Below, one piece after another: positions 1-19,656 of a DNA stretch of 25,162 bases (the first letter of the stretch is position 1; each line of letters opens with the position of its first letter). Source of the stretch: a virus. Under the pieces are notes generated by a model that did not search any database, was not told the DNA's origin, and was given only the letters and a program-made list of their open reading frames with translations. The stretch covers positions 1 through 25,162 of the IMG/VR virus record IMGVR_UViG_3300013088_000124. One strand, 5' to 3'. A program made the position numbers and the translations under genes.

Positions 1-3
1 AAG

Positions 4-477
4 ATGAAAAGGTATATCGGATTTGTAAATCAGGAAAGGGGTCATGCTTTTGCTAAATCTGTTGCAGATGAACTGAGGAAGAACGGCTGGGAGGCACGCA
101 ATGAGGTGCAGATGACGGAGTTGGGAGCAGGATCAAGGCTTGGAGACATTGATGTGCTTGCCTGGAAGGCAGGGGGCAAAATTCTGCTAATAGAATGCAA
201 ACGCCTGCAACTTGCAAGCACGATAGCAGAGATTGCAGAAATCTGCCGGCGCTTTCGAGGGGATGCGAAAGATGAACTTGCCAGGCACATCACCCGCGCT
301 GAGTGGGTAGCACAAAATGCCGATACCCTCCAGCGCATTATCGGATTTAGACCAGATACCGGCAGCATTGATACGATGCTTGTTACCAATACTCATGTTC
401 CCATGATGTATTTGACTTCGTTACCGATCAAGGCAGACAAAGTTCTTCCGTTTAACAGATTGGTTGGGATAGTATAG
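4..477 (+). CDS. PD-(D/E)XK nuclease-like protein, possibly N-terminally truncated by the window edge
   Basis: This 157-aa protein carries a restriction-endonuclease-like signature. GDIDVL at residues 47-52 supplies an acidic residue (D50), followed 14 residues later by IECKRL (63-68) with E64 and K66, the usual D-x(n)-ExK core of PD-(D/E)XK nucleases. A preceding helix with Glu residues (about 11-34) fits the fold. The family includes Mrr-like and other DNA-cleaving enzymes, and the substrate cannot be named here. The first ATG lies only three bases from the window edge and the frame is open there, so this may be the C-terminal part of a longer protein. It belongs to the host flank, converges with the MFS gene, and looks more AT-rich than the genes that follow. 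Existence of the CDS is fairly sure; the function is inferred from the motif alone. Confidence 0.6.
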   Translation: MKRYIGFVNQERGHAFAKSVADELRKNGWEARNEVQMTELGAGSRLGDIDVLAWKAGGKILLIECKRLQLASTIAEIAEICRRFRGDAKDELARHITRAEWVAQNADTLQRIIGFRPDTGSIDTMLVTNTHVPMMYLTSLPIKADKVLPFNRLVGIV

Positions 478-701
478 CAACTCCACGACCGCATCCTCTA
501 TTTTGTTGACCTCTTTGTTGTCGATAGCGACAAGATCACTGCCATCAGAATCTTCCACAGTTCACAAGTGACGGTGATCAAGAATCAACAATATTGGCTC
601 CACAAACTTTGGCTTTACGAATTAACTGCCCTGAGGCGTTCACCCCTTCGCATCGATCCGTTGTGGAAACTTCTTCTACGGATCGTAAGCGACACGCCTC
701 T

Positions 702-1895
702 TCAACCCGCCCGTTTTCCACTCGTCATCCAGAACGCGAGGACAAAGAGGACGGTCAGGGCGGCGATCAGCAAATAGAGCGTGAGGAGGTTCGAACCCGC
801 CAGGACGAAGGTCGCCATCAGGGGGCCGACGCCATTTCCGGCGAATCGCGCCGAATTCAGAAAGCCGATCCCCGTTCCCCCCAATTCCGAAGCGAAACTG
901 GCCATCACCAGCGGGATGACCACCGCAACGACCCCGGTCTGAAGCATCCTGATGACGGCAAAGCTGATGACTTCCCCCGGAAAGAACAGCAGGACCTGGA
1001 GGAATGCAGAGGTCAGGCATAATGCCGCGATGACCCTTTTGAGCCGTTTCCCCGCGGTCAGACGGCTGATCACGTAGTTTCCGATGATGGCGGTCGCCGT
1101 GTACCCCATCATGATAAACCCGGCGGATTTTATTGCGCTCTCACCCACCAGATCAAACCCCTCCAGCACATGGGGCAATATGCTCGGCAAAAAAGTCAGG
1201 TGGATGGTGGCGATGAAGCTTAACGCCCACCCCCACAGGACGCCTTGATCGAAATGGCTGCTCTGATCGGAGCCCGCCTCCCTCTTCCGGGTTTCAACGA
1301 TGTAGATATGGCACAGGACCAGGGCAACGCCGACCAAAAGGAAAGAGAGGACAAACGGGGCCCGGTATCCGATCTGGGCTGCGGCGTACGCCCCGACGGG
1401 CGGCCCCAAGAGCTGGCCGGCGGTCATGGAATTTTGATAGAGGCTCAGATTGCTTGGCAATCGCTCTTTCGACGATAGCTGCGAAATCATGAAAATACCG
1501 ATCGTCGAGGCGCCGCCGAGAGCTCCCTGGATCAGGCGCAGCGCCAGCAGCATGGGCAGGCTGTCCGTAAAACCCATGAGAAGAAAGATGATCCCGTTGC
1601 ATAAAAAAGCCCCCTGGTAGAGGGCCTTGGGGCGGAATGTTGCGGTCAGGCTTCCCCAGAAGGGCGCCGCCCCAGCGGCGATAAAGGAATTCAAACCCAT
1701 GATGAGCCCGATCCACACCATCGTTTCCGGAGGCTTGTAGGGGCTCATTCTAATGATATAGAAGGGCATGAACGACATGACGACGTTGAAGCTAAACGCC
1801 AGACCAAACTGCGACAGGGCGATGAAAATAATGCCCTTGTTTCCGTCCGAGGCAGGCAGGATACGGTTTAAAAAAGGAAATGCTATTTTTTTCAT
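702..1895 (-). CDS. MFS family transporter (probable drug/solute efflux)
   Basis: A 397-aa, very hydrophobic protein with about twelve predicted membrane segments, the usual size of a major facilitator superfamily permease in the inner membrane. The loop after the second segment (GSLTATFRPKALYQG, near residue 80) resembles the MFS motif A region. A second long hydrophilic loop near residues 205-220 (ETRKREAGSDQSS) separates the two six-helix halves. I chose the ATG at 1895 because AAGGTG precedes it at good spacing; a GTG three codons upstream (1904) is the alternative. The gene is divergent from a tetR-type gene across a 277-bp spacer, a common arrangement for a repressor-controlled efflux pump. 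Substrate is unknown. The family call is firm; the efflux role is inferred from context. Confidence 0.85.
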   Translation of the reverse strand: MKKIAFPFLNRILPASDGNKGIIFIALSQFGLAFSFNVVMSFMPFYIIRMSPYKPPETMVWIGLIMGLNSFIAAGAAPFWGSLTATFRPKALYQGAFLCNGIIFLLMGFTDSLPMLLALRLIQGALGGASTIGIFMISQLSSKERLPSNLSLYQNSMTAGQLLGPPVGAYAAAQIGYRAPFVLSFLLVGVALVLCHIYIVETRKREAGSDQSSHFDQGVLWGWALSFIATIHLTFLPSILPHVLEGFDLVGESAIKSAGFIMMGYTATAIIGNYVISRLTAGKRLKRVIAALCLTSAFLQVLLFFPGEVISFAVIRMLQTGVVAVVIPLVMASFASELGGTGIGFLNSARFAGNGVGPLMATFVLAGSNLLTLYLLIAALTVLFVLAFWMTSGKRAG

Positions 1896-2073
1896 ACGGT
1901 TCACACCTTACCGGCGGGGATTCCCGGGCGCCGGTCTCGGCGATGATTCACTCCTATCGTTCCATAAGGTACCCGGCGTTCTTATCACGGGTGCCGGAAG
2001 AGAAGCAATGATCTTCCCATCTGCCGCCAAAAGCCGGCGCCTATATCCGTCTCCTTCAGCCGACCGGGTGAAA

Positions 2074-2099
2074 ACGGACAATATTCACGGACAATATTC
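2074..2099. repeat. Tandem 13-bp direct repeat, candidate operator
   Basis: ACGGACAATATTC occurs twice back to back, immediately upstream of the TTGACA element of the tetR promoter and inside the divergent tetR/MFS spacer. TetR proteins usually bind inverted repeats, so a head-to-tail pair is atypical. The position still fits a regulator site controlling one or both divergent genes. The rest of the spacer (1896-2073) shows no clear element. Confidence 0.45.
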
Positions 2100-2102
2100 C
2101 CC

Positions 2103-2131
2103 TTGACAGACCGCTCTTTTTTCGTTATCTA
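2103..2131 (+). promoter_or_regulatory. Putative sigma-70 promoter of the tetR-family gene
   Basis: A perfect TTGACA (2103-2108) is followed after 17 bp by TATCTA (2126-2131), a weak -10 hexamer. It lies about 40 bp before the TetR start codon, whose own ribosome site is GGAAGG just ahead of ATG 2173. The -35 box is convincing; the -10 is not. Confidence 0.45.
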
Positions 2132-2172
2132 CCTATCCATCAAACGATTGAATCGCAGACTGGAAGGCGCCC

Positions 2173-2538
2173 ATGTCCACCCCTCTCGAAAAGGCCCGCA
2201 AGGACCCCGAATCAATGAAGGCCCGCATCCTCGACGTCGCCCGCCGGATCTTCGGCGAGTACGGCTTCCACGGCACGACGACCCGGATGATCGCCCAGGA
2301 GGTGGGGATCGACATCTCCACTCTTCATTACCACTGGGGCGGGAAGAAGGACCTCTATGAGTCCGTGGTCATCGACATCAACAAGGACCTCCGGCAAAAG
2401 CTGATCGAAGTGGAGCAGGCGATCCACGGCCTGCCGCTCGGCGAGCGTCTGGACATCTCGATCGACATGACGACCGATTACCTCTTCGAGCACCCAGAAG
2501 TCTCGAACCTGATCCTCTTCTGTGGCCGCGCGAGATAA
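2173..2538 (+). pseudogene. TetR/AcrR-family transcriptional repressor, truncated by prophage insertion
   Basis: The 121-aa reading frame has a complete TetR-type DNA-binding domain. Residues 15-65 hold KARILDVARRIFGEYGFHGT, then a helix-turn-helix (TTTRMIAQEVGIDISTLHYHW) and the KKDLYESV helix typical of the family. TetR proteins normally run to about 190-220 residues, with the second half forming the ligand pocket and dimer interface. Here the frame stops after LILFCGRAR, in the third or fourth helix of the ligand domain, at the point where phage-end sequence begins. The last few codons are probably phage-encoded. The gene is divergent from the MFS transporter, its likely target. The product should be unable to dimerise or sense ligand normally. 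The C-terminal half should lie at the other end of the prophage, outside this window. Confidence 0.8.
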
Positions 2539-2576
2539 CTAAAGGCGGAAAATCGAGATAACTGACTTCCCAAAAG
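2521..2576. repeat. Putative prophage terminus with two tandem 23-bp transposase-site-like units
   Basis: Two adjacent 23-bp units, 2531-2553 and 2554-2576, share CGAGATAACT at positions 1-10 and AAAA at positions 19-22, with about 16 of 23 positions identical. They begin about 10 bp after the last plausible host codon of the broken tetR gene. Mu-type phages carry adjacent 22-bp transposase sites (R1, R2) at their right end, also ending in an A-rich block. A 5'-TG at 2521 is a candidate first dinucleotide of the element, but the exact junction cannot be fixed without the other end. Confidence 0.5.
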
Positions 2577-2577
2577 C

Positions 2578-2594
2578 GTTTGATCTGGTCAAAC
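2578..2594 (-). terminator. Possible intrinsic terminator of the late operon
   Basis: On the minus strand GTTTGA-CCAGA-TCAAAC forms a 6-bp stem with a 5-nt loop, followed by GCTTTT. It lies about 20 bp after the stop codon of the last phage gene (2614). The stem is AT-rich and the T-run short, so termination would be weak. Confidence 0.35.
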
Positions 2595-2613
2595 TTCATT
2601 TGATATTGTCATA

Positions 2614-3146: not shown

Positions 3147-4912
3147 CACACTATCCCCCACACGATGACTTCTCCGCGACCACCTGTACCTCCTGCGCCG
3201 CCTGTTCCGCTCGCGTTGCATCCTCCACCGCCCGCTCCGCCACCTGGGGCACCGCCATTCCCTCCTGCCCCAGAGGTTAAACTTCCCTTATATCCTCCTC
3301 CGCCGCCGCCATCAGATCCTGTATACAAGACGCTATCGCTTCCGGCTGTCCCGGCTTCTCCCGACGTGCCAGTTCCTCCTGCTCCACCACCACCCGTAGA
3401 AATTGTATTCACCCCCCCCTTTCCTCCGGCAGTTGCTTCAATTCTCCCACTATCATTTCCCATGCTGGCGCCAGCACCGCCGCCGCCGCCGCCCCATTGG
3501 GATGATCCGCCTGCCTGTTGTGCCTGGGCTGCATCAGAACACGATGCTGCACCGGCTGCGCCACCTGTAGTTGCCCATCCCTGAGTAGCGTTGTATTGCA
3601 TCGCCGCCGATCCACCACCAAAAATGTTCTCCGGAATTGTAGATGTCGAGCCGAAATGACTTGCTAAAAAAGGCGCTCCCCCATTGCTATTTCCACCCGC
3701 ACCAAGATATCCCCCTCCCGCGCCACCTGTCGATCCTGCTGTTTGCCCATATCCTCCGCCGCCACCATAAGCAACAACAAATGTCCCAAATGCGGACGTT
3801 CCGCCTACCCCGCCGCTTGTTGTGGCGCCATTATTTGTGGTAGATCCTGCTCCCGGCGTTCCGCCGGCGCCTACCGTGCAGGTGATTGCTGTCCCTACGG
3901 TAAGGCTTCCAACGTGATCCCTTCTTGTGTAGCATCCACCACCGCCGCCTGCGCCGCCTTTTTTTTCCGCCGCATCATTACGGCGCCCACCTCCCCCACC
4001 GCCACCTGCTCCGATGCAAATAACACCACAGGTCTTGTATCTCGGTGGGACATAGAATGACGCCGTTGTTGTGAACTTTTTGAGAAAACTTTGAATCACT
4101 ATTGTATAAAATCCCGATCCGTCGCATTGGATCAAACGACATTCTCCGGGATACATGATGAAAGAGATCACTCCATCAATAGTCTCCTCGCCATCCGGGT
4201 CAAGTGTCACGTCGCCGGTTCCGCTGTTGCGATAGAACACGAACCATCCGCTGCCAAGCGTAGCCGCCGCTGTGAAAGTCTGCGTGAATGTGCTCGCGCC
4301 GGTGACATCGATCAAAGTTCCCATATTCCCTGCTTCGAGAACTGTGTTCGATGTTCGAGTTGTCCGCGTCATGACAGCCGCCGTTCCATTTGCACCTTTA
4401 TCGCCAGTTCGGGAAAACTTCAGGATGATCGAATCGTTATTTGTAAAGGGATTTGCCGAGCTCGCAGAAACCACGGCCACGGTGATGTTCTTATATCCCG
4501 ACGGCGAGGCGACGGCGGAAACGGTGAACAGGATCCACTTTGTTGCGTCGGCGAGCTTTTGCAGGAGGATGTGCCCCTTGACGGTGCTGTCGGACCCGGC
4601 GAAGGTTGCCAGAACATCGGTCCAGGTCGAGCCGTCGGCCCCTACCAGATCGGCCCGGATGGTGGTGGCGGTATTCTGCGTGGCATTGTCAAGGCGGAGA
4701 TAGCCAGCACCCGGATCGCTGTCCGTCGTGGTCGTGCTGAAGGTGTAGGGGATGCCGACGGCGGTTCCTGCGGCGATCGCGCTCATGGCGGCAGCCAGGG
4801 CGTCTACTGCTGCGCCCCAGGCTGGGAGTTTGCCGAGCAGGGTGTCCATGTAGGAGGCAAAATTGGTTGGATCTGTAGATATCGGTATTGGCGTCATCGA
4901 GGGTATAGTCAT
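3146..4912 (-). CDS. Tail fibre / receptor-binding protein with glycine-rich C-terminal domain
   Basis: The protein has 588 residues. The N-terminal 60 residues are helical and probably attach to the tail. Residues about 60-290 are beta-rich, with Thr/Ser-rich strands (for example TRTTRTSNTVLEAGNMGTLIDV... and DPDGEETIDG) resembling trimeric fibre modules. From about residue 295 to the end the chain is dominated by glycine runs (AGGGGGGG, GGGGGYGQ, GGAGGTGGRGEVIVW), ending in a GxVxVW strand typical of glycine-rich phage fibre tips. Such domains can fold as packed polyglycine-II helices, as in the S16-type adhesin tip, with variable loops contacting the receptor. It follows the tail-tip gene by one base (stop 4914) and is followed by the Cys-rich and fibre-assembly genes. 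The fibre call is strong; the receptor is unknown. Confidence 0.8.
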   Translation of the reverse strand: MTIPSMTPIPISTDPTNFASYMDTLLGKLPAWGAAVDALAAAMSAIAAGTAVGIPYTFSTTTTDSDPGAGYLRLDNATQNTATTIRADLVGADGSTWTDVLATFAGSDSTVKGHILLQKLADATKWILFTVSAVASPSGYKNITVAVVSASSANPFTNNDSIILKFSRTGDKGANGTAAVMTRTTRTSNTVLEAGNMGTLIDVTGASTFTQTFTAAATLGSGWFVFYRNSGTGDVTLDPDGEETIDGVISFIMYPGECRLIQCDGSGFYTIVIQSFLKKFTTTASFYVPPRYKTCGVICIGAGGGGGGGRRNDAAEKKGGAGGGGGCYTRRDHVGSLTVGTAITCTVGAGGTPGAGSTTNNGATTSGGVGGTSAFGTFVVAYGGGGGYGQTAGSTGGAGGGYLGAGGNSNGGAPFLASHFGSTSTIPENIFGGGSAAMQYNATQGWATTGGAAGAASCSDAAQAQQAGGSSQWGGGGGGAGASMGNDSGRIEATAGGKGGVNTISTGGGGAGGTGTSGEAGTAGSDSVLYTGSDGGGGGGYKGSLTSGAGGNGGAPGGGAGGGGCNASGTGGAGGTGGRGEVIVWGIV

Positions 4913-4913
4913 T

Positions 4914-6008
4914 TTATATTTCCTCCAAACTCAAATTTATCTCGGCCATTCCATCTCTCACCTGGCTAATTTCAAATTGTGTATAGATGCCAAGAATGGT
5001 AAGCATATCGAACCATTCACTTTCATTGTCGTCGAATCCGGTCCACAGCGCGGGCACTGCATTAAGCAGAACCCGCGCCTCTTTGCACCTGTTAACGCGA
5101 CCGCTTGATACACGCAACGTCTGCACAGTTTTTGGTATCGTCCTTCTCGGAATAAGAGTTGCGTTCCCAAAAGTATCCCGCGTGACACTGGAGAAGTTTA
5201 GGCCGTCGTTGGTTGCCCCATATTGAACATCGCCGATGTAGATGTAGGTGCCGCATACCAGCGCCCCGCACTTCACGTTGCCGCTGGTGGCTGTAATCGT
5301 CACGGTGATGATGATGTCGGAAAACGGCGGGATGTCGAAGATAGTCATGCTCGGCCGTGTTGAAAAAGGCTCAAAGCAGTAGTCGTAACCATCGTTGACA
5401 ATCCGAGTATTCAGATCGAATATGCCGGTGGGCGATTTACTATACGCGTTGGGGTATACCGTTCCGCCTCCCATCACAGATGTCGCGCTGATCTGCACCT
5501 GATTCGCGGACAACCCAGCAAGACCGACAGCATTGACACGCTGGCCGGGAGCAATCACAACGGTCAGGGGCGAGGCTGTAACCGTCTGTGTGTTCCGGCT
5601 GAGGTCGAACATCGCATAACGGTTTGTCGGCCCCACGTCCAGCCATTTCGTCGTTACCGTTTCCGGGAGCACCGGGAGAGGGTTTCCGACGTTCCCGGCG
5701 GCAAGGGATTCGTAACAGCGGTGGGATGTTGCCGATGACACGGTATCGCCCAGGGCATAGGTTGTCGCCGCATTATACGCCGTTTCGGTAGTGCCAAGAA
5801 CCCGCCACCAGATCGGGTTGATGTTCGGCGTGTTCCCGGTATTTGCGCCGGCCAGGGATTCGTATATGGCGAAATCCGCCGCCACGGAGACGATGGCGCC
5901 GAAGGCGTAAGTGGTCCCCGCCACGTAAGCCGCCGGGGCGTGGGGCTCGGCAGCGGTAGAGGATGTCAGTTTTGTGGTCGTTATTGCAACGGGGGGCGTT
6001 ACCCTCAT
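4914..6008 (-). CDS. Tail-tip/baseplate protein with two carbohydrate-binding-like modules
   Basis: The 364-aa protein has two tandem modules of about 45 residues, around 27-73 and 77-126. Each follows the pattern AY..GTTY..G..V....... YESLA..N.GN.P... ending in a Trp (WWRVLG, KWLDVG). This resembles the small aromatic-rich chitin/carbohydrate-binding modules (CBM5/12-like) used by phages to touch surface glycans. Next comes NRYAMFD and a beta-rich core with VTITATSGNVKCGALVCGTYIYIGDV. The acidic C-terminus (ESEWFDMLTILG...) may dock to the tail. It starts at ATG 6008, overlapping the tape measure stop (ATGA). Position directly after the tape measure, where distal tail or hub proteins normally lie, suggests a combined tip-adhesin role. 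Module assignment is by pattern only. Confidence 0.65.
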   Translation of the reverse strand: MRVTPPVAITTTKLTSSTAAEPHAPAAYVAGTTYAFGAIVSVAADFAIYESLAGANTGNTPNINPIWWRVLGTTETAYNAATTYALGDTVSSATSHRCYESLAAGNVGNPLPVLPETVTTKWLDVGPTNRYAMFDLSRNTQTVTASPLTVVIAPGQRVNAVGLAGLSANQVQISATSVMGGGTVYPNAYSKSPTGIFDLNTRIVNDGYDYCFEPFSTRPSMTIFDIPPFSDIIITVTITATSGNVKCGALVCGTYIYIGDVQYGATNDGLNFSSVTRDTFGNATLIPRRTIPKTVQTLRVSSGRVNRCKEARVLLNAVPALWTGFDDNESEWFDMLTILGIYTQFEISQVRDGMAEINLSLEEI

Positions 6009-11216: not shown

Positions 11217-11419
11217 TGGATCTGTCCTTTCTCCCGTGGGGCGGGATGTTTTGCCCCCTCCCCTTTGTCCCCTCCCGCGAGGGGAGGGGAGATCTCGTAT
11301 CCGCTTTCGCGGGGAGATCTTGAGAGGGCGCGTGGTTTATGGCGGGGGGCGGTGGGGTTCTTCCCCCATAGGCCGGGAGATATCCCGGCTTACCGCGGCC
11401 GCCCCCGTAACTTCCGTCT
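11217..11419 (-). other. Hairpin-rich non-coding spacer between tail tube and chaperone genes
   Basis: No convincing gene. Several inverted repeats follow one another: CCCCTC-CCGC-GAGGGG (about 11269-11284), AGATCTC ... GAGATCT (11290-11320), GGGG-TTCTT-CCCC (11354-11366) and GCCGGGA-GATA-TCCCGGC (11372-11389). With the 47-nt double hairpin at 11420-11466 they fill the whole 262-nt gap. They could act as attenuators, partial terminators or RNA-processing sites after the highly expressed tube gene. Confidence 0.55.
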
Positions 11420-11466
11420 GGAAACACGATGCGATCCCGCCGGGCGGGCTTCCGCATCATGTCCCC
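11420..11466 (-). repeat. 47-nt double-hairpin repeat, copy A
   Basis: Plus-strand arms GGAAACACGATGCG (11420-11433) and CGCATCATGTCCCC (11453-11466) enclose an inner stem CCCGC/GCGGG. It lies 12 nt after the stop of the tail tube gene. In the minus-strand RNA all 14 outer pairs form (with G-U wobbles); in plus-strand RNA three would be mismatched. It matches copy B at 43 of 47 positions. Confidence 0.85.
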
Positions 11467-11478
11467 GTGGCGTTATGT

Positions 11479-13005
11479 TTAAGCCGCGTACGTCGCCTGT
11501 AAATTCTTCACCTTGACGATCACCGAGCCGTAGGTGTCATCCTCGAGGACCTGAAGATCACCGGCCTCGCCGAGCCGCTTCCCGTCCACCGAGATCGGCG
11601 CCGCAAGGACTGCCACTTTCGGGAAGATGATCTCCACCTGGTACTTGTGGGGCGTGTCGTAGATTGCCCCTTCGGCCAGGATGTAGAATCCCATAGTGTC
11701 GTTGTCGATCAGCTTCTGCTGCATGATAAACTCACGGAACTCGCGGTTCAGCGTGATCTTCTGCGTCCTTCCGCCGCGCATGCCCCTGGAGGCATAAGTG
11801 CCGCCCCCCCCGGGGACAAACTCCACAGCCATGTTTTTATTCCCCGACCAATCGACGGATTTTACCTCGGCCTGTAATTCACGGCCGCCCAGAAAGGTCG
11901 TCCCGTTCCACTTTCCGCCGGCCTTTAGCGTCATCTGCGACACCCGCAGCGGGGTCTCATTGATCCGCGCGGGGAACGTCATCCATCCCGATTCCGTCGG
12001 GATGTAGAGGATATCATAGGTGGCGTTTGTGGATTCGATGACGGTTCCGGGATCGGTCCCGGCGTCATACGCCACCGCGAACCCCGAGGAGTTGATCGCG
12101 ACGGAGAATGAATCGACTCCGATATACGTGACGGTCTGCTCGCCGTTGAGGCCGGACCAGTCCGCCTGCGTGATCCCCGCAAAAGTCACTTTGTCGGTGC
12201 TGACCAGACCGTGGGCAACCCACGTAACGACGCAAGCCGCCGCCTTCGAGAGCCCGGCGATAGCCACCGCTGTCGCCGGCGGCGTGATGGTGATGACAGC
12301 CGGAGTCGCAGCGGAGACCTCCGAGAATGCGACATTCTGATATTCGCCGCTGTTTGGCATCAACACGCGGATCTGCTGGACGTTTTCCAGCCTTGTCGCG
12401 GCGCTCGCGGGAGTGTCGTCCTGGACGGCCAGGGCGGCCAGCGTCAGCGACGTGGCGTTCATTTTGGCCGTCTTGTTCTCTTTTGCGATATTGTCCGTAT
12501 ACTTTCCGGCGCCCTTGATCGTCCCCGAGATCTTGCACCAGGCGTCCTTTGCAAACGATGCCGAGATGGAATCGACGAACATCGAAGCAAACCGCCGCCG
12601 GAGAACATTGTCGCCATAGCGCTGCGCCGCCGTAAACGAGGGCTCCGAGCGATCATCATCAAGGTCTCCGTCAATCGGGGTGATGGTATGCTGATAACCC
12701 GTTCCGGCAGGCACCGTGGCGCACTCACCCAGAAAATACGCCAGCAGGAAGGCAAAGTGCTGCGGCTGCGCCTTCTCAAAATTGAATGTGGCGTTGGACA
12801 GCGAACCCAGGTCGTAGAGGGTGTCGGGCTCCTCTTTTCCGGTCGCCTCATTTTCGTTTGACTCGCGCCGGTGCTCCAGGTTGATGATGTCGCCCAGGGC
12901 GCAGAGCATCGTCGTATCCAGCGTCTGTTCCGTATTGATGGCCGTCTCCCTTGTGTTGGCCGAGACGGCGATCAGATCGTGCGTCGCCATGTGTGATCGC
13001 GTCAT
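11479..13005 (-). CDS. Major tail tube protein with inserted surface domain
   Basis: A 508-aa protein. The N-terminus has NTEQTLDTTMLC and long beta-strand stretches, with FAFLLAYFLG and GTGYQHTITPIDGD typical of siphovirus/Mu-type tube proteins. Residues about 100-200 (SISASFAKDAWCKISGTIKGAGKY) and 340-500 (RVSQMTLKAGGKW, GGGGTYASRGMRG, YQVEIIFPKVAVL) continue the tube fold. Between them, residues about 256-325 (CVVTWVAHGLVSTDKVTFAGI ... DSFSVAINSSGF) form a separate small beta module. This module also recurs in other phage virion proteins and probably projects from the tube. ATG 13005 follows GGAGG; the gene starts 4 bp after the small gene upstream. The gap after its stop is a hairpin-rich spacer. 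The call is by composition, module layout and synteny with the tape measure. Confidence 0.75.
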   Translation of the reverse strand: MTRSHMATHDLIAVSANTRETAINTEQTLDTTMLCALGDIINLEHRRESNENEATGKEEPDTLYDLGSLSNATFNFEKAQPQHFAFLLAYFLGECATVPAGTGYQHTITPIDGDLDDDRSEPSFTAAQRYGDNVLRRRFASMFVDSISASFAKDAWCKISGTIKGAGKYTDNIAKENKTAKMNATSLTLAALAVQDDTPASAATRLENVQQIRVLMPNSGEYQNVAFSEVSAATPAVITITPPATAVAIAGLSKAAACVVTWVAHGLVSTDKVTFAGITQADWSGLNGEQTVTYIGVDSFSVAINSSGFAVAYDAGTDPGTVIESTNATYDILYIPTESGWMTFPARINETPLRVSQMTLKAGGKWNGTTFLGGRELQAEVKSVDWSGNKNMAVEFVPGGGGTYASRGMRGGRTQKITLNREFREFIMQQKLIDNDTMGFYILAEGAIYDTPHKYQVEIIFPKVAVLAAPISVDGKRLGEAGDLQVLEDDTYGSVIVKVKNLQATYAA

Positions 13006-13008
13006 AGC

Positions 13009-13242
13009 TTATTTCCTCCCCTTTTCCGAAGGCGGGTTTGAGACACCCTCCTCCTTGCTGTCGGCGACCTTTGCGGGTTTTGCCGCCTCGCGCACCGGCG
13101 CGGCCGCCTTTTTGATTTCCGTGAAATTACCGGCCATGCCGGGCGGAATCTCGTCGTATGACTTGCCCGGCTCAAACTTCCGGCCCCCGAACGGGCCTTC
13201 CACCATTGTGAATGCCTCTTTTCCTTTTTTTAACTCAAACAT
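13009..13242 (-). CDS. Small phage protein of unknown function
   Basis: A 77-aa protein with AGGAGG ahead of ATG 13242. The first half is a compact segment (MFELKKGKEAFTMVEGPFGG ... GKSYDEIPPGMAGNF) with the look of a small SH3-like or decoration-type fold. The second half is Ala/Lys/Pro-rich and probably disordered. It sits between the tail terminator-like gene and the tail tube gene with 12-bp and 3-bp spacers, so it is clearly part of the structural operon. A similarly placed small gene occurs in Mu-like phages. I do not recognise the family. Confidence 0.65.
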   Translation of the reverse strand: MFELKKGKEAFTMVEGPFGGRKFEPGKSYDEIPPGMAGNFTEIKKAAAPVREAAKPAKVADSKEEGVSNPPSEKGRK

Positions 13243-13254
13243 AGCGCCTCCTTT

Positions 13255-13731
13255 TTAATTTTCCTGAGCCTCGATTACACACAATCTGCATTCCGCCACA
13301 TGGCACAAAACGTTGCCGAACATACGAGGTTCGATCACGTCTCCCTGCAACCCTACTGCGCCCGCCATAGGCCCCCAATCGGGGTCGATCGTTCGGCATT
13401 CACCGTCCAGGGTTTCGTGGCCTTTGAAGGCGGCACGCATATTCTCCAGATGATCGTCGAACATGATCCCGGTCGCGCGCTCGTCTTGCAGGCCCATGAT
13501 TCGCCTGAATAAGAATACGTGCGCCGTTTCGGTCTCCCCGATCGTTTGCTGCTGCTCCTGCCATTTTTCACGCACAAACGCGCACCCGTTGATCCGCCCG
13601 TCGGCATCTTTGTAAAGAGCGAGATATTTGTTCCAATCGGGGCTCCAGCGTTCGTAATCGTGGACAACCCCAATCCCGTCGACGCCCGCGAGGATGACCT
13701 TGATTCGCTCCCTGATCGCCGCCAAACTCAT
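13255..13731 (-). CDS. Probable tail terminator / neck protein
   Basis: A 158-aa protein starting MSLAAIRERIKVILAGVDGIGVVHDYERW, where the helix followed by 'G...VHDY.R.' is the usual opening of siphovirus tail-completion or tail-terminator proteins. The middle (HVFLFRRIMGLQDERATG) and the C-terminal segment (AVGLQGDVIEPRMFGNVLCHVAECRLCVIE) read as a mixed alpha/beta core ending in strands. Tail terminators cap the tube and join it to the neck. ATG 13731 overlaps the previous stop (ATGA), and the position after the gp10/G-like gene and before the tube gene is the expected one. The call is by synteny and fold impression. Confidence 0.6.
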   Translation of the reverse strand: MSLAAIRERIKVILAGVDGIGVVHDYERWSPDWNKYLALYKDADGRINGCAFVREKWQEQQQTIGETETAHVFLFRRIMGLQDERATGIMFDDHLENMRAAFKGHETLDGECRTIDPDWGPMAGAVGLQGDVIEPRMFGNVLCHVAECRLCVIEAQEN

Positions 13732-14237
13732 GCTTTATCCTCGCTTAGATGGAAGGCTATATCGTAGCCCGCCCGGTCAAAAATCTCCGTCATTTTTCCC
13801 TGGCTCTCTTTGAACGTATTTTCAAACATGTGGACGCCCGGGAAGCCCACCTTGCCGATCTTGCGCCGAATTAGAAACTCTACCCGCTGCGCCGGTTTCC
13901 CGCTGAGCCCGGTCTTGATCTCCACCCAGCGGAGCATGGATCCGGCGGGCGGCATTTTTTTGCCCGGGCGACGGCCATATTCGATAACATCTCCATATTT
14001 GCTCCCGTGGCCCACGATGCCGCTGATCGCCGTCCCGTGCTGAACAACCTCGCCGAAGATGGTACTCCGCAGGCCGCCCTGCATCCCGAAGACGCCCTGG
14101 GGGGTTCTTTCTTTGACTTTGCCCTCCAGGTATCCGGTCGCCTCGTACATGGCGGAGAGCAGGTCCTTCCGGATGATCTCCGGGGCCTTTCCGTCAAAGA
14201 TCGCGCCCTTCCTGCTGACCGTCGCTTTCAATTCCAT
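13728..14237 (-). CDS. HK97 gp10-like / Mu G-like virion morphogenesis (tail completion) protein
   Basis: A 169-aa protein from ATG 14237. It begins with an amphipathic helix (IIRKDLLSAMYEATGYLEGKVKERTPQGVFGMQGGLRSTIF), where 'V...TP.......LR.SI' is the hallmark of gp10-like neck proteins. It continues with the short strands HGTAISGIVGHGSKYGDVIEYGRRPGKKMPP, which match the 'Y....E.G...' core. It ends with a helical FPGVHMFENTFKESQGKMTEIF, also typical. The protein acts at the head-tail joint. The start ATG shares one base with the upstream stop (TGATG), and the stop overlaps the next start. Family recognition is good by motif pattern. Confidence 0.75.
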   Translation of the reverse strand: MELKATVSRKGAIFDGKAPEIIRKDLLSAMYEATGYLEGKVKERTPQGVFGMQGGLRSTIFGEVVQHGTAISGIVGHGSKYGDVIEYGRRPGKKMPPAGSMLRWVEIKTGLSGKPAQRVEFLIRRKIGKVGFPGVHMFENTFKESQGKMTEIFDRAGYDIAFHLSEDKA

Positions 14238-14941
14238 CAGCGCCTCTTTCGATCGCTCCGGGGATGGGTCAACCGCTCGCCCCCGCCCGGGTATTTCATG
14301 TCCAGATCGCCCACGGCGGCGGCCGCGGGGACGGTGTCTTCGTCCTTCAGCCCCAGGTGATCCCGGTAGATCTTCCGGAACGCCTTTGCCCGCGCGGCGA
14401 AGTCCCTGGACTTGCTCGTGTGGTCCACGCTGTCCGCCTGGATGGTGCTGTCCTGATTCTGCGCGAACCATGTCGCCAAAATCTCGCAATAGAGCGCCGC
14501 CGCCAGCGACTGGACAGCCTCCTCATCGATCGCCTTCACCGTGCAGGCCGTATCGGTGCAGGTGTGCAGGGCAGTGTAGGTCGCCCGGAACGTCTCCGTT
14601 GACTCCGGCTGATCCTCCAGGAAGCGGAGATAATCGCCCGCCGGCTTGCGGTAGATCGTCCAGGCGTCTTCATCGAGGATCTCGGCGGTTTCGTTTGTGT
14701 CGTTGACGGGGTATTCCACCGCCTGAATCATCGAAAACCCGTCGGACCATCCAGCGAGGAGCGACACGGCATAATCGAAGGCCCCGGTACCGGCCTCATC
14801 TTCAACGACGATCCGCGGGCGGTGCCTGGAATAGGTCTTCACCGCCTGGCCGATCGCCAGGATCTTGGCCGCCTCGCCCGGCTCGTAATCGCCCTTGACC
14901 AGGCTCTCCAGCGCCGTGATGTAGTCTTGCCGTGTGGTCAT
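14237..14941 (-). CDS. Head-tail connector (adaptor) protein
   Basis: A 234-aa protein with AAGGTG ahead of ATG 14941. The N-terminal part is helical (MTTRQDYITALESLVKGDYE...AKILAIGQAVKTYSRHRPR). The acidic middle, with an insertion bearing CTDTACTV, leads to a long helix bundle (SLAAALYCEILATWFAQNQDSTI ... SRDFAARAKAFRKIYRDHLGL). The last helices, with paired Ala and Arg positions, are characteristic of connector proteins that sit under the portal. The C-terminus (YPGGGERLTHPRSDRKRR) is basic. It begins the neck cluster; the next gene starts inside its stop codon. It is separated from the upstream exported-protein genes by a repeat-filled gap. Confidence 0.6.
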   Translation of the reverse strand: MTTRQDYITALESLVKGDYEPGEAAKILAIGQAVKTYSRHRPRIVVEDEAGTGAFDYAVSLLAGWSDGFSMIQAVEYPVNDTNETAEILDEDAWTIYRKPAGDYLRFLEDQPESTETFRATYTALHTCTDTACTVKAIDEEAVQSLAAALYCEILATWFAQNQDSTIQADSVDHTSKSRDFAARAKAFRKIYRDHLGLKDEDTVPAAAAVGDLDMKYPGGGERLTHPRSDRKRR

Positions 14942-14968
14942 TAAATCACCTTCCGTTCAGGAACGTCG

Positions 14969-15104
14969 CGCTCCACTTTGGCCCGGTGATGAGCTCGTCA
15001 TCACCCTCCGATCGCTCCACTTTACCCCTTTTTTTAGGGGCTCTTCCTCCACTTTACCCGGCGCCGGCGTCCGGATCCGGGACGAGATCGCTCCACTTTA
15101 CCCA
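14969..15104 (-). repeat. Four copies of a 13-15 bp motif alternating with hairpins
   Basis: On the sense strand GGGTAAAGTGGAG(CG) occurs at 15104-15089, 15060-15048 and 15028-15013, and as GGCCAAAGTGGAGCG near 14983-14969. Motif spacings are 43, 33 and 44 bp, close to whole helical turns. Between them lie CCGGATCCGG (15071-15080), CCCCT-TTTTTT-AGGGG (15025-15040) and GGTGATGA-GCTCG-TCATCACC (14985-15005). No reading frame is convincing here. Confidence 0.7.
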
Positions 15105-15602
15105 CTAATTCTTAAACACTCCCGTCACGCTGAATGTGAACGACGTCCCGCCGACGACGTAGTTGATCCGCAGATAATTCCCGAAATTCGTGACCGCGGC
15201 GCGGGTCTGCCCGATCGCCGAGATCTGGCCGACCGTTGTGTGGGTGTACCAGGCCGCGTTGTCCGGCGATGTCTGGACGGTGATGTCCAGCGTAGAGGTT
15301 CCGGCTTCGACCGTTACATCGATGAAGATTTGCCCCTCGGTGTAGCTGCTGACATCAAACGCGGTGGACTGCGCCGTCGCCGCCGTTTTGATGCCGCTCG
15401 AAAGGAGGGTGATGACGCGCGTTTTCCTGTCATCCGCCCGGGCAGGCGAAGCCGTGACGATCTCCGCGATGAAAATGGCCGCCAATAACACCAGGACCGC
15501 CCACAAGAGGAGATTCGACCCTCGGACGGCCAAAGCACCGTCCCCGGCAGCCGATTGCCCCACGGAGGCCGTGTTCTTGATTCTCGGTAAATGGATTTTC
15601 AT
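15105..15602 (-). CDS. Exported or membrane-anchored protein with virion-type beta domain
   Basis: A 165-aa protein. After a polar N-terminus it has one hydrophobic segment (LLLWAVLVLLAAIFIAEIV, about 31-49) followed by TASPARADD, where ARA-DD resembles a signal peptidase site. The remainder is a beta-sandwich-like domain: TSTLDITVQTSPDNAAWYTH, then NYLRINYVVGGTSFTFSV near the C-terminus. That LDITVQTSPD ... YLRI...GGTSFTFSV layout is common in phage virion surface proteins. AGGAG precedes ATG 15602. Together with the neighbouring 418-aa gene it forms a two-gene block with export signals inside the head operon, set off by hairpin repeats on both sides. Function is unknown; surface display on the lysogen or virion decoration are both possible. 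Confidence 0.65.
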   Translation of the reverse strand: MKIHLPRIKNTASVGQSAAGDGALAVRGSNLLLWAVLVLLAAIFIAEIVTASPARADDRKTRVITLLSSGIKTAATAQSTAFDVSSYTEGQIFIDVTVEAGTSTLDITVQTSPDNAAWYTHTTVGQISAIGQTRAAVTNFGNYLRINYVVGGTSFTFSVTGVFKN

Positions 15603-15625
15603 GGTCCCGATCTCCTTTCTCTTCC

Positions 15626-15672
15626 GGGGACACGATGCGATCCCGCAAGGCGGGCTTCCGCATCATGTCCCC
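15626..15672 (-). repeat. 47-nt double-hairpin repeat, copy B
   Basis: Outer arms GGGGACACGATGCG (15626-15639) and CGCATCATGTCCCC (15659-15672) with the inner CCCGC/GCGGG stem, ending 23 nt before the start of the 165-aa gene. It differs from copy C at one of 47 positions; that change is an A-U/G-U exchange in the sense RNA. Confidence 0.88.
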
Positions 15673-15688
15673 GATTCAGCCCGTTTTC

Positions 15689-15750
15689 GGTCTCCGGGAT
15701 CCGCGATCGATCGCGGCCCCTGGAGACCGGCGGAAGGTCGCCCCTCCGCC
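15689..15750 (-). other. Two further strong hairpins in the same spacer
   Basis: GGTCTCC (15689) pairs with GGAGACC (ending 15728) around the perfect 16-nt palindrome CCGCGATCGATCGCGG, giving about 18 base pairs. Immediately next, GGCGGA ... TCCGCC (15729-15750) adds a 6-bp stem. They lie 43 nt after the stop of the 418-aa gene. Neither has a T-tract. Confidence 0.6.
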
Positions 15751-15793
15751 GACTCGTTTACGCCCTCCAAAAGTGCGGGGCCGGGTTTATCAG

Positions 15794-17050
15794 TTACGTC
15801 TGTACCGCCGTTCGGCAAACCTCGTACCAATGCGATCCATCCGAAATGAACCTGATCACATAATACCTTGCCGCCGTGTTGCCGATCGTCAGAGTTCCGG
15901 TGGACGATACAAGCGTCGCCTGGAATGTGATGACCTCGGTGTTTGTCGTGGTGGCGGTGAAAATGATGGTTAGTACGTCGCCCGCCGTCCCCGCACCCGA
16001 AAAAGTGATGGTTTCAGCCTCGTTGTCATTCGGCGTCAGCGTGTAGCAATTCGACAAACCGACCGTAAGAGTAGGTGTGGCTGAGGGAGTCACTACGCTG
16101 CAAGCCGAGGCCAACTGAACCTGCCCGGTCCTGTCTGGAAATGTGATTGACCGGTCCGCCGTGGGATCTACGACGGTGACGGTCGTTTCATAAGCGTCGG
16201 CCGTCGCCCCCTCGAACTCAATCCCATTGGAAACCAGAGTGACGGCGTTGGCCGCATCCCGCACGTTGGTAGACAGAGTGGAAAGCACCACGGTGCCGGT
16301 GGCGTTGGGCAGCGTGATCGTCCTGTCCGCCGTCGGATCGATTACGGTAAGCGAGGTCTCGTAGGCGTCCGCCGTTGCGCCCTCAAAGACCAGGGCGTTT
16401 GACGCGCCTGTAACAGAATTCGCCGCATCCGGGGCGTTGGTGGACAGGGTAGAAAGCATCACCGTACCGCTGGCGTCCGCCAGGGTTACTGTTCTGTCCG
16501 CCGTGGGATCCGTCACGGCGATCGACGTTTCATATTCGTCCGCCGTTGCGCCCTCAAATACCAGAGGCGTCGCCCCGGAAAGCGTTCCCAAAACCGTCAG
16601 AGAGGAGCTGTCAAAGTAATTTTGAAAATTTACCAAGTACGTCGTGGCTGAAATCGCCTGGCCGACCTGCTGGCTATACGACGGGGACGACTGTGTCACC
16701 GCGCCGGCAGTCTCCGAGAGATACCCCGGAGCCCCCTCGGAGAGCGCAGTCCATCCGGAGAGACTACCGACCACGATGATTTCAACCGTAGCGCCGGTCG
16801 CCCCACCCTTGCCGACGATCCCGATCGCGGGCCGCAGGGCGGCATCGTTGGCGTCGGCCTTATACGCTTTGCCGTCGGCATCCTTGAGCATAACCACGTT
16901 GCCCGTGGCCAGGGTTTCCGCCGCGACTGCGGAGAACCGCAGAACGGCCTGCTTGACGCTGTAGGCCGCAAATGCGTCCGTCGTCACAAATACCAGGGCG
17001 ACTAAAAGCAGAAGCGCGGCCATGAACTTTTGACCTATATTTTTCCTCAT
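15794..17050 (-). CDS. Signal-peptide-bearing decoration/fibre-like protein with three 57-aa repeats
   Basis: A 418-aa protein. Residues 1-28 are a classical signal peptide: MRKNIGQK, a hydrophobic core LLLLVALVFV, and AFA at the cleavage site. Residues about 40-145 resemble capsid cement/decoration domains (ETLATGNVVMLKDADGKAYKAD ... GYLSETAGAVTQ). Then come three repeats of 57 residues starting at 163, 220 and 277, each opening FEGATADxYET and containing DPTADRT(I/V)T(L/F). This module is common in phage and environmental tail-fibre-like proteins. The C-terminal domain (about 320-418) is Thr-rich beta structure ending near FISDGSHWYEV. AGGAGG precedes ATG 17050. A signal peptide on such a protein is odd because virions assemble in the cytoplasm. 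It follows the capsid gene, separated by hairpin copies C and D. Confidence 0.7.
   Translation of the reverse strand: MRKNIGQKFMAALLLLVALVFVTTDAFAAYSVKQAVLRFSAVAAETLATGNVVMLKDADGKAYKADANDAALRPAIGIVGKGGATGATVEIIVVGSLSGWTALSEGAPGYLSETAGAVTQSSPSYSQQVGQAISATTYLVNFQNYFDSSSLTVLGTLSGATPLVFEGATADEYETSIAVTDPTADRTVTLADASGTVMLSTLSTNAPDAANSVTGASNALVFEGATADAYETSLTVIDPTADRTITLPNATGTVVLSTLSTNVRDAANAVTLVSNGIEFEGATADAYETTVTVVDPTADRSITFPDRTGQVQLASACSVVTPSATPTLTVGLSNCYTLTPNDNEAETITFSGAGTAGDVLTIIFTATTTNTEVITFQATLVSSTGTLTIGNTAARYYVIRFISDGSHWYEVCRTAVQT
16094..16564 (-). repeat. Internal 171-bp coding repeats (two full, one partial)
   Basis: Segments 16564-16394, 16393-16223 and 16222-16094 encode successive copies of the FEGATADxYET...DPTADRT unit. 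Period is 57 codons. The copies have diverged at the DNA level, so the duplication is not recent. Confidence 0.75.
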
Positions 17051-17119
17051 TTGTAACCTCCTGTTTTAGTTTTGGTTTCGTTCGGCCATTCAGAGGCCTG
17101 TTTTTTATTTCCCGGTGGC

Positions 17120-17166
17120 GGGGACATGATGCGATCCCGCAAGGCGGGCTTCCGCATCATGTCCCC
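17120..17166 (-). repeat. 47-nt double-hairpin repeat, copy C
   Basis: Arms GGGGACATGATGCG (17120-17133) and CGCATCATGTCCCC (17153-17166) are perfectly complementary over 14 bp, with the inner CCCGC-loop-GCGGG stem. It lies in the gap between the capsid gene and the 418-aa exported protein, 49 nt after the capsid stop. Confidence 0.88.
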
Positions 17167-17181
17167 GATCGTGCCGTGGAT

Positions 17182-17208
17182 GGGGTCACGATGCGGCATC
17201 GTGTCCCC
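17182..17208 (-). repeat. Short hairpin repeat, copy D (inner arm missing)
   Basis: GGGGTCACGATGC and GCATCGTGTCCCC form the same outer stem as copies A-C (12 of 13 pairs) but without the inner CCCGC/GCGGG arm. It starts 6 nt after the stop codon of the capsid fusion gene. It looks like a deletion form or a minimal version of the element. Confidence 0.75.
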
Positions 17209-17214
17209 ATATCG

Positions 17215-19656
17215 TTATCCGCCCGCGACGACCGACTTGTCGAAGCCGCGGTAGTCCGCAATTTCCCACTCATACTCATGCCGCTGTTTGTACTGGATTT
17301 TGTCCGCTACAAACATCTGACCGACGAGCGGGTTGTCGGCCACAAACAGCTCCGGGACTTCCTGGCCGTTCAGGAACGCGACCTCCAGGAGCTCCACCTC
17401 GGCCGGGTTGCCGATCAGGCCCCAGTCGGTGGTATCCGTGGCGCTCTTATTCACCAGGATGTTCTCGTGGTTGGCGCCGAAAAGCCCTGCATGGGAGTTC
17501 GGCGCAGCCGCGCCGGGCCAACTGGAATTGAGCAGCCTTGCCGTTTCCAGGAGGGCGCGGGGCACCCAGATCTTGGCCGGCTCCAGGCAGAGACATTTGC
17601 CGCTGTCCTTTTCGGTCTGGTTGAACATGGCCACCAGGCGGTTGGTCAGCGTCGTCACCCCGGTTGCATCGGCGGTGAGGGCCACCGAGCCGAGGTTCCC
17701 ATGCGAGGCGTCGAACAGCGCCGTGGAGTCGCCCTTATACGTGGCGTTGCTGTTGATTTTCGCCCAGCCGCGTTCCGCAAAGGTGCGCTTGGCCGCCCGG
17801 CCCAGCCGTGAGACCAGAACCTGGACGCTCTTGAGGTCGTCGTTTATGATCACCTTCCGGTTGACCGTCAGGATGATGCCCTTCTGGTTCAGCGCGTAGG
17901 AGATCTCCTCGTCGTTCGCCATCGTGATCTCCGCGTAGTCTCCGGACTCGGGATCTACATCCGGGAGATCGCCGAAATAGCCGACGTTGATGGATTCCAT
18001 CGTTTTAAAATCCTTGGCGTTCCGCTTGTAGCTGATCAGGGCCTGCTCGCCATAATCGACGGCGCGGTAGTCCTGAATCAATCTCCGGTACATGGAGTTT
18101 CCGAGGACATAGGTGAAGGATGCGGTGCTGTACGCGGCCGGCATCCTCATCATCTGCATCATCGCCTCGCCTATTTTCAGCCCGTTCTGGGTGGGCACGC
18201 CGCGCACATCGGTGTCGCCGGTGAGGTGCACGTAGGCGGCGCGAAGCGAGGTAAGCGCCGCGACGTCCTTGAACTTCTCGTCCACCGTGACGCCCATGAG
18301 CTTGTCAAAGGCCGCCTGGAGCTTTTCGGGCTCCTCCGCCCCGACGCGTACGCCGCCGGCGCCGGAAACGATTCCCGCCCCGGTGAGCTTGTCGAGATAT
18401 TCCTTCTCGTCGTTCACTGCAGCCTGGAGCGCCGTGACGTCAAAGACCTTGCCGTCAAACTGCTTTTTGACCCGAGCCTGAGAGAGATCCGGCAGGCCGC
18501 TTTCGCGCAACTCGTCTTTCAGGGTGAGCCCGCATGCGGTAATCCTGGACTGCTCCAGGAGCTGACGCATCTCCGCCCCGCCCGCATCGCCTGCGGCCTT
18601 CACCGCCGCCTGGATGCGCTGGTCGAGGTCCTTCGTGTCCTTCGTGTCGCCGGTTGCCGACGCCAGCAGGGCGATCACCTCGTCTTCGGTGATCGTCTTG
18701 TCCGTGATTTTTGCCTCGATCGACTTGTAGAGATCGGCGCTTTTCGTCTTCAAGGCTGCCAAAAGTTTCTCCAACATACCTTCCTCCTTCCGGCCCGCCT
18801 GATAGGCAGCGGCCATTCTCAAAATCTTCCCCCCCGCAATGGGGTCATAGACAACGTCCACGCTGTCCACCCTGACGATCTTTTCCACTCTCTTCGGATT
18901 CGTGCCCGGCATTGTGGCCGCCAGCACGTCGTGGGAGAGCCCCACGATATCTTTCTTCCCGCGAGCCCAGGCGTCGCCGATCATGTCCTTCAGCCAGGCG
19001 GCGCTTTTGAGGATATTGAGCGTGCCCTCCAGCCCCGTGGCATTGGCCGCGACGTCGGACATCCAGCCCACCAGATCCCGGACGGATTTTCCGTAAGGAT
19101 TCGCCGGGTTGTCATGCTGCGCCTGGGACAGCGCAAACACCCGGGAGCCCTCGTAAAGAGGCGCCGCCGCCGTGAGCACGGCGAGCGGATAGTCGGCGAT
19201 TTTCTGTTTGTCGATCCCGGCTTCGTTGATCTGCACCCGCCAGCGGGAGCCGTAATCGGCGTCGGTCGTTTCGCCCACCGCTGCCGATAATTGAGCCGCC
19301 GCCTGGACCTTGATGTAATCGACCTGCTTGCGCACCTCCACCGACGTTCCCAGCACGATCTTGCTATCGACGATTGCGTAAGGGACCTCATATGTTTTGT
19401 CGTCGTCTCCGGACGCGATGCAGCGATCGTCGTAAACGTCCACAATCCACCCGCCGCCCTTCTGCGGATAGGCTGCCGTGAGCGCCGGGCAGAGCATCTT
19501 CTTGATCTCCGCATGGCTGAATCCCGCCGCGGTGAGCCGATCGGCGTCATCCGTTCCCGCGGCCAGCAGCCGTGTTAAATCCTTCCAGGTAGGGAACCGG
19601 GTGCAGTTTACACCCTCCCCCACCACGAGCACCCGTGTCAGCGTTTTCCTGGACAT
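17215..19656 (-). CDS. Prohead protease - scaffold - major capsid fusion protein
   Basis: An 813-aa polyprotein. Residues about 90-285 resemble phage prohead serine proteases: SQAQHDNPANPYGKSVRDLVGW (His181 a likely catalytic residue), then KKDIVGLSHDV (Ser241 the likely nucleophile). Residues about 290-440 are helical and charged, like a scaffold (LEKLLAALKTKSADLYKSIE ... DLDQRIQAAVKAAGD). Residues about 450-813 resemble Mu gpT-type major capsid proteins (NQKGIILTVNRKVIINDDL, ALFDASHGNLG, and near the end YEWEIADYRGFDKS). Protease-capsid fusions are known in some Mu-like prophages. ATG 19656 follows GGAGGAG and abuts the stop of the upstream gene. A strong internal Shine-Dalgarno and ATG at codon 294 could yield a separate 520-aa scaffold-capsid product. 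Domain order is clear; catalytic residues are inferred. Confidence 0.85.
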   Translation of the reverse strand: MSRKTLTRVLVVGEGVNCTRFPTWKDLTRLLAAGTDDADRLTAAGFSHAEIKKMLCPALTAAYPQKGGGWIVDVYDDRCIASGDDDKTYEVPYAIVDSKIVLGTSVEVRKQVDYIKVQAAAQLSAAVGETTDADYGSRWRVQINEAGIDKQKIADYPLAVLTAAAPLYEGSRVFALSQAQHDNPANPYGKSVRDLVGWMSDVAANATGLEGTLNILKSAAWLKDMIGDAWARGKKDIVGLSHDVLAATMPGTNPKRVEKIVRVDSVDVVYDPIAGGKILRMAAAYQAGRKEEGMLEKLLAALKTKSADLYKSIEAKITDKTITEDEVIALLASATGDTKDTKDLDQRIQAAVKAAGDAGGAEMRQLLEQSRITACGLTLKDELRESGLPDLSQARVKKQFDGKVFDVTALQAAVNDEKEYLDKLTGAGIVSGAGGVRVGAEEPEKLQAAFDKLMGVTVDEKFKDVAALTSLRAAYVHLTGDTDVRGVPTQNGLKIGEAMMQMMRMPAAYSTASFTYVLGNSMYRRLIQDYRAVDYGEQALISYKRNAKDFKTMESINVGYFGDLPDVDPESGDYAEITMANDEEISYALNQKGIILTVNRKVIINDDLKSVQVLVSRLGRAAKRTFAERGWAKINSNATYKGDSTALFDASHGNLGSVALTADATGVTTLTNRLVAMFNQTEKDSGKCLCLEPAKIWVPRALLETARLLNSSWPGAAAPNSHAGLFGANHENILVNKSATDTTDWGLIGNPAEVELLEVAFLNGQEVPELFVADNPLVGQMFVADKIQYKQRHEYEWEIADYRGFDKSVVAGG
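18775..18788 (-). promoter_or_regulatory. Internal ribosome binding site and ATG inside the protease-capsid fusion
   Basis: The sense strand reads GGAAGGAGGAAGGTATG, with a full AGGAGG (18788-18783) five bases before an in-frame ATG (codon 294). It sits exactly between the protease and scaffold regions. It is as strong as the true gene starts of this operon and would make a 520-aa scaffold-capsid protein without the protease. Confidence 0.65.

Follow-up and report, generated by a model that had tools for sequence, protein, structure and literature searches.

The DNA examined here, hereafter the window, is the IMG/VR viral contig G000 (record IMGVR_UViG_3300013088_000124; 25,162 nucleotides [nt]), in which a family of short hairpin elements lies between genes of the late operon. 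This operon is on the minus strand and encodes a terminase, a portal, a MuF-like protein, a protease-capsid fusion, a decoration-like protein, a tail-tube-like protein and a tape measure. The protease and major capsid fusion gene (17215-19656, minus strand) matched PF25209 (2.6e-29) and phrog_4523, a major head and protease protein. The decoration-like structural gene after it (15794-17050, minus strand) has no Pfam match and was assigned by position, as was the tail-tube-like gene (11479-13005, minus strand), which has neither a Pfam nor a PHROG match and lies upstream of the tail chaperone and tape measure. Sequence inspection was used together with position for all tube and decoration gene assignments. 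On the minus strand, a full 47-nt element is found behind the tail-tube gene (11420-11466), the decoration-like gene (15626-15672) and the protease-capsid gene (17120-17166). A short 27-nt palindrome comprising the arms only, GGGGACACGATGC-C-GCATCGTGACCCC, is present at 17182-17208; it is near-symmetric, and its minus-strand assignment is nominal. The coordinates and sequences given for the four copies in a preliminary description of this locus are correct.

As minus-strand RNA, a full copy reads GGGGACATGATGCGG-AAG-CCCGC-nnn-GCGGG-A-TCGCATCRTGTCCCC and folds into a 15-bp outer stem (the last pair being G-U), an AAG/A internal loop and a 5-bp inner stem. What had been described as a double hairpin is thus one interrupted stem-loop. 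Nor is the inner stem common to all four copies, since the short copy lacks it and has one stem mismatch in either strand. Loop bases had been said to vary freely, but only two loop states, CTT and CCG, occur in the window. The copy behind the tail-tube gene has a CCG loop and a CC to TT change in its 3′ arm that creates two G-U wobbles. The copy behind the decoration-like gene has a CTT loop, one U-G wobble and the flanks ATC...GGAA, as in host copies (below), and the outer arms of the copy behind the capsid gene are perfectly Watson-Crick paired. Folding energies of the full copies were -30.6, -36.3 and -36.7 kcal/mol for minus-strand RNA and -20.2, -30.6 and -35.0 kcal/mol for the plus strand. 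On contig L128, which is near-identical to the window, the post-decoration copy comes first (folding z-score -7.6) and the post-capsid copy second (-6.6) among 1292 sixty-nt windows. A covariance model whose training set included the window copies scored the full copies at E values of 1e-12 to 1e-14 and the short copy at only ~1e-4. An Rfam scan at gathering and relaxed thresholds gave no match in the window, and six copy-rich loci yielded one far sub-threshold hit only. Two more strong palindromes share gaps with the elements (15688-15729 and 11225-11289); where the window has the former, the phage contig L270 has another sequence, with a short copy of the repeat in it.

Similar to intrinsic terminators, the elements are GC-rich hairpins located after genes. 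However, the U-tract is absent directly after the stem and the elements also occur between co-directional structural genes; on the former ground, an intrinsic terminator was rejected. A very stable, GC-rich stem located between a high-demand gene and the next gene downstream could also act as a partial terminator or attenuator that reduces expression past the highly expressed genes. We consider this very unlikely, as none of the window copies is followed by a U-tract (flanks GCCACC, GGAAGA and AGACGG), a terminator scan picked none of the four elements, and the capsid copies are followed by another structural gene. The preliminary description had proposed an RNA element that stabilizes or processes late mRNA or partly stops transcription. 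The missing U-tract fits stabilizing or processing better, and termination is not favored.

The placement of the elements behind capsid, decoration-like and tail-tube genes, first noticed in the window, was also seen in unrelated phages. Among 21 full copies on 12 phage contigs, 18 follow one of these three gene types. They comprise three copies each in the window, L270 and L008; copies behind the tail tubes of L011, L013, L109 and L273 and behind the capsids of L009, L272 and L274; one in L111, behind the gene next after the capsid; and one in L047, between the decoration and capsid genes and antisense. The other three are a copy after the MuF gene of L270, a second copy in L272 and an antisense copy in L103. 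Overall, 19 of the 21 are in sense orientation. The capsids of L008, L272/L047 and L274 are of the gpT type and unrelated in sequence to that of the window, the L009 capsid is only 25% identical to it, and L109 and L273 carry other tail tubes. Further, five capsid relatives (50-73% identical) lack the element, and each has another hairpin without a U-tract about 70 nt or less past the capsid stop. By folding z-score, these post-capsid hairpins ranked 2 of 380 (L124), 1 of 732 (L126), 1 of 869 (L129), 34 of 1068 (L127) and 113 of 1485 (L125). The L124 hairpin (4804-4832, GTAGGGGCGGGTTTCACGCCCGCCCCTAC) lies directly after the capsid stop, begins with GTAG and resembles a GTAG-tagged repetitive extragenic palindrome (REP). 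It was considered as a common repeat of the host order, and this was rejected because the GTAGGGGCGGGTTT..CCCGCCCCTAC type was found in only 1 of 154 genomes (G024).

The family extends well beyond phages. A pattern scan covered viral contigs and 84,980 genomes, and it matched other phage contigs and metagenome-assembled genomes (MAGs) titled Deltaproteobacteria, Syntrophaceae and Syntrophobacterales, as well as single loci in one Omnitrophota and one Planctomycetota MAG. In seven genomes of a single bacterial family, the one including Syntrophaceae, the covariance model R2 gave at least 83, 64, 58, 52, 47, 30 and 25 matches, with no more than 150 candidates scored per genome. The consensus of the family is (A/G)TC-GGGGACATGNNC-GGAAG-CCC..GGG-ATC-GNNCGTGTCCCC-GGAA. 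The arms covary, with NNC/GNN types ATG/CAT, TTC/GAA, TAC/GTA and AAC/GTT, and this covariation is far above that of shuffled or slid controls. The GGAA tail 3′ of the hairpin was not part of the search pattern; counted one base at a time, it is found in 73-79 of the 89 host copies. An arms-only form of 26-27 nt is also common. Host copies are mostly intergenic (16 of 89 counted overlap a predicted gene), and between flanking genes 32 are sense, 15 antisense, 12 convergent and 3 divergent. The excess of convergent over divergent settings shows that they lean to gene 3′ ends, a pattern similar to the published distribution of REPs (PMC3733652). Like REPs, REPINs and BIMEs, these are short, mostly intergenic palindromes that number in the tens per genome and lie between co-directional or convergent genes; their stem changes are compensatory and their tags are fixed. 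In contrast, they have conserved (A/G)TC and GGAA flanks in place of a GTAG or CGTC tag, form a single interrupted hairpin and not a REP pair, and no RAYT flanked by the hairpin was found. Taken together, there is good support for a REP-like repeat family dispersed in Syntrophales-type bacterial genomes. In host genome G021, copies of the repeat are clustered in tandem, with arm types mixed (L242 2306-2468 and L246 1056-1219). The phage contig L103 has several GGGGACAC-type palindromes (1687-1725, 3396-3422 and 5946-5986) with different arms (AATTG, CATT), which suggests that phages carry more than one such repeat family.

A covariance search of host genomes had been suggested as a means of distinguishing a phage element from a host REP-like repeat, and the answer differs for the family and for its 47-nt form. 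With dozens of copies per host genome, a phage-only distribution was rejected for the family as a whole, but it was retained for the 47-nt subtype. The window copies are defined by the inner stem CCCGC..GCGGG, and of 155 genomes of the order just one contains it; all four occurrences are on contig G002:C337, where a relative of the window phage is encoded. In that MAG, most copies on the host chromosome measure 43 nt and have another arm type. The preliminary description also held that many host copies on both strands with no sense-strand bias in compensatory changes would refute its reading. The first half of this applies, as host copies are indeed many. They occur in either orientation, the 32 sense and 15 antisense copies lying between co-directional genes.

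The window and L270 have full copies at orthologous sites behind the capsid, decoration and tube genes. The post-decoration copy in L270 (4382-4428) is identical to that of the window and the post-capsid copy (2697-2743) has one difference. Loop types are mostly site-specific, with CTT at the post-capsid and post-decoration sites and CCG at the tube site, the exception being L013, which has CTT at the tube site. From these comparisons, the 47-nt subtype appears to be restricted to phages and passed on at constant positions within the late operon. Short copies are placed differently; the 17182-17208 site is empty in L270, whose short copy is at the decoration site. The tube site is occupied in the window, L270, L008, L011 and L013. 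Compared with the L008/L270/L011 version, the copies in the window and L013 also match at 45-47 of 47 positions, with flanks that cannot be aligned; for the tube gene, fourfold sites show 59-74% identity in every pair of the four phages measured. At 60% neutral identity, the computed probability of 45 or more identities in 47 is about 2e-8. Purifying selection is the simplest reading of this identity next to the drifted fourfold sites, although the site may instead have been replaced repeatedly by like copies.

These observations also bear on the possibility that the elements are neutral passengers. A host transposase acting in trans would insert repeats into phage DNA that survive only in the few gaps of the dense late operon, behind capsid, decoration and tube genes, and the sense bias would reflect strand-biased insertion. 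The dispersal of the family in hosts agrees with this, as do the differing positions of short copies in the window and L270 and the host orientation bias of only 2:1, and gap availability explains much of the positional pattern. Nevertheless, we regard this explanation as unlikely, because it accounts neither for the near-identity at the tube site beside unalignable flanks and drifted fourfold positions, nor for the phage-restricted subtype, nor for the other hairpins at the same place in relatives.

The preliminary description had further argued that pairing is kept only in the sense RNA. Across 70 distinct copies, a fixed wobble (U-G or G-U) is found at positions 7 and 8 on the GGAAG strand, and elsewhere departures from Watson-Crick pairing comprise 12 G-U and 9 A-C. 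The wobble-based inference of sense-only pairing therefore fails family-wide, and we rejected it as proof of selection on RNA. In the window, the argument comes down to two events, namely C/T in one arm and, in one copy, CC to TT; either was as likely as not to seem sense-specific, and pairing in copy 17120 is perfect whichever strand is read. The fixed wobble tells which strand forms the structure, but it would be explained equally well by RNA and by single-stranded DNA that a Y1 enzyme recognizes. A DNA-level device, in which the GGAAG strand folds as single-stranded DNA into a site for a Y1/HUH nuclease or a replication or packaging protein and has no RNA role, was also considered. The fixed wobble, the strongly conserved GGAAG/ATC loop and the GGAA tail resemble protein-recognition features, TnpA-REP proteins act on single-stranded DNA hairpins (PMC6006769), and the GGGGACA ends resemble TIRYT repeats. 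However, such a device would explain neither the preference for sites behind highly expressed genes nor the interchangeability with unrelated hairpins, and we judge it improbable.

The TIRYT class of transposases has the terminal inverted repeat (TIR) motif GGGGWSAS (PMC3733652, Di Nocera et al. 2013, TIRtrons; PMC6006769, TnpA_Y1 subclass 2.1). The first seven bases of the hairpin end, GGGGACA, fit this motif; the eighth is T or C, and S permits C but not T. Many Y1 (HUH) genes of 230-240 aa in the same bacterial order have inverted repeats on both sides, spaced about 740 bp from each other; these start with GGGGACA, often with TTCC just before it (TTCC|GGGGACA), which is the hairpin's GGAA tail in reverse complement. 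Dispersed dimers and clusters are a further likeness to TIRYT TIRs and TIRtrons. In contrast to these, the inverted ends here are joined into a stem-loop of 43-50 nt with a fixed GGAAG/ATC internal loop, copies are phage-borne, and no TIRYT gene with matching arms was found for the hairpin. TIRs of a cognate Y1 gene would read GGGGACAYGNNC. TIRYT-like genes with GGGGACA TIRs are common, but none had the hairpin's GNNC arm in these MAGs, which are incomplete. Since the Y1 loci examined lack the hairpin's own arm sequence, the link to a transposase is by shared ends only. As for mobility, insertion polymorphism was seen for short copies only, and we infer that a TIRYT-type Y1 transposase may be the mobilizing enzyme.

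Based on the observed family and its host dispersal, the covarying arms, the phage-restricted subtype with its position and sense bias, and the tube-site conservation, we favor, with moderate confidence, the explanation that host REP-like repeats were adopted by phages and that the hairpins stabilize or process late mRNA. The family, consisting of miniature, head-to-head terminal inverted repeats, is dispersed in Syntrophales-type bacteria and would have been acquired by their phages. The 47-nt subtype would be kept at fixed late-operon sites because the transcribed strand forms a very stable intercistronic hairpin near the stop codon and free of a U-tract. By blocking 3′-to-5′ decay and/or marking a processed 3′ end, this hairpin would most likely allow the capsid, decoration and tail-tube messages to outlive the rest of the polycistronic transcript. 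In this way it probably protects or separates the mRNA of the most heavily made proteins. A role of REPs as mRNA-stabilizing intercistronic hairpins is named as a hypothesis in PMC3733652. Those hairpins are likewise very stable, U-tract-free and located between a high-demand gene and its operon neighbor; unlike them, the elements described here lie in phage late operons. More tentatively, it is possible that a host mobile repeat was domesticated by Syntrophales phages, with purifying selection holding the subtype in place behind the tail-tube, capsid and decoration genes, the post-capsid slot filled by interchangeable palindromes (one of them GTAG-ended and REP-like), and the GGAAG/ATC internal loop perhaps binding a specific protein.

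Several observations weigh against the adoption of host repeats as mRNA-stabilizing hairpins. Two phage copies (L047 and L103) are antisense. Of all gap space in these contigs, 19% lies behind the three gene types, and in the window late operon the share is about half; the 18 of 21 copies are not independent, as their sites are partly orthologous. Given the gap share and the orthologous sites, the position is suggestive and not decisive, and taken by itself it is unlikely to a moderate degree only. At the post-capsid and post-decoration sites, the flanks are conserved as well, so that conservation of the element carries less weight there. The post-capsid hairpins of L125 and L127 are not significant by z-score. 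G-U pairs are not in excess over A-C outside the fixed wobble positions. Finally, no transposase gene flanked by the hairpin or its own arms was found at Y1 loci from 17 genomes and 30 of the best order-wide matches.

Whether REP-like repeats are useful to the genomes that carry them is a long-standing question, and the open-access literature searched held no direct precedent for such repeats in phage late operons. These operons provide a clean test bed, with few gaps, known product ratios and many lineages for comparison. If a host repeat is indeed kept behind the most abundant structural genes and elsewhere swapped for unrelated palindromes, this would argue that the hairpin itself is useful at the RNA level. 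Phages would then also be vehicles that carry such repeats between hosts.

Some features of the neighboring genes were also observed. The decoration-like gene of the window contains three repeats spaced by 171 nt (16143-16558), corresponding to 57-aa protein repeats, and its L270 counterpart is longer, with a later part that aligns poorly. Hydrophobic N-terminal segments resembling signal peptides, unusual for virion proteins, are present in the decoration-like proteins (window 15794-17050; L008 5153-6358) and in a 165-aa protein (window 15105-15602). The left end of the window (1-2600) carries Mrr_cat nuclease, MFS transporter and TetR-type genes that resemble host or cargo genes, suggesting that the contig may cross a prophage border.

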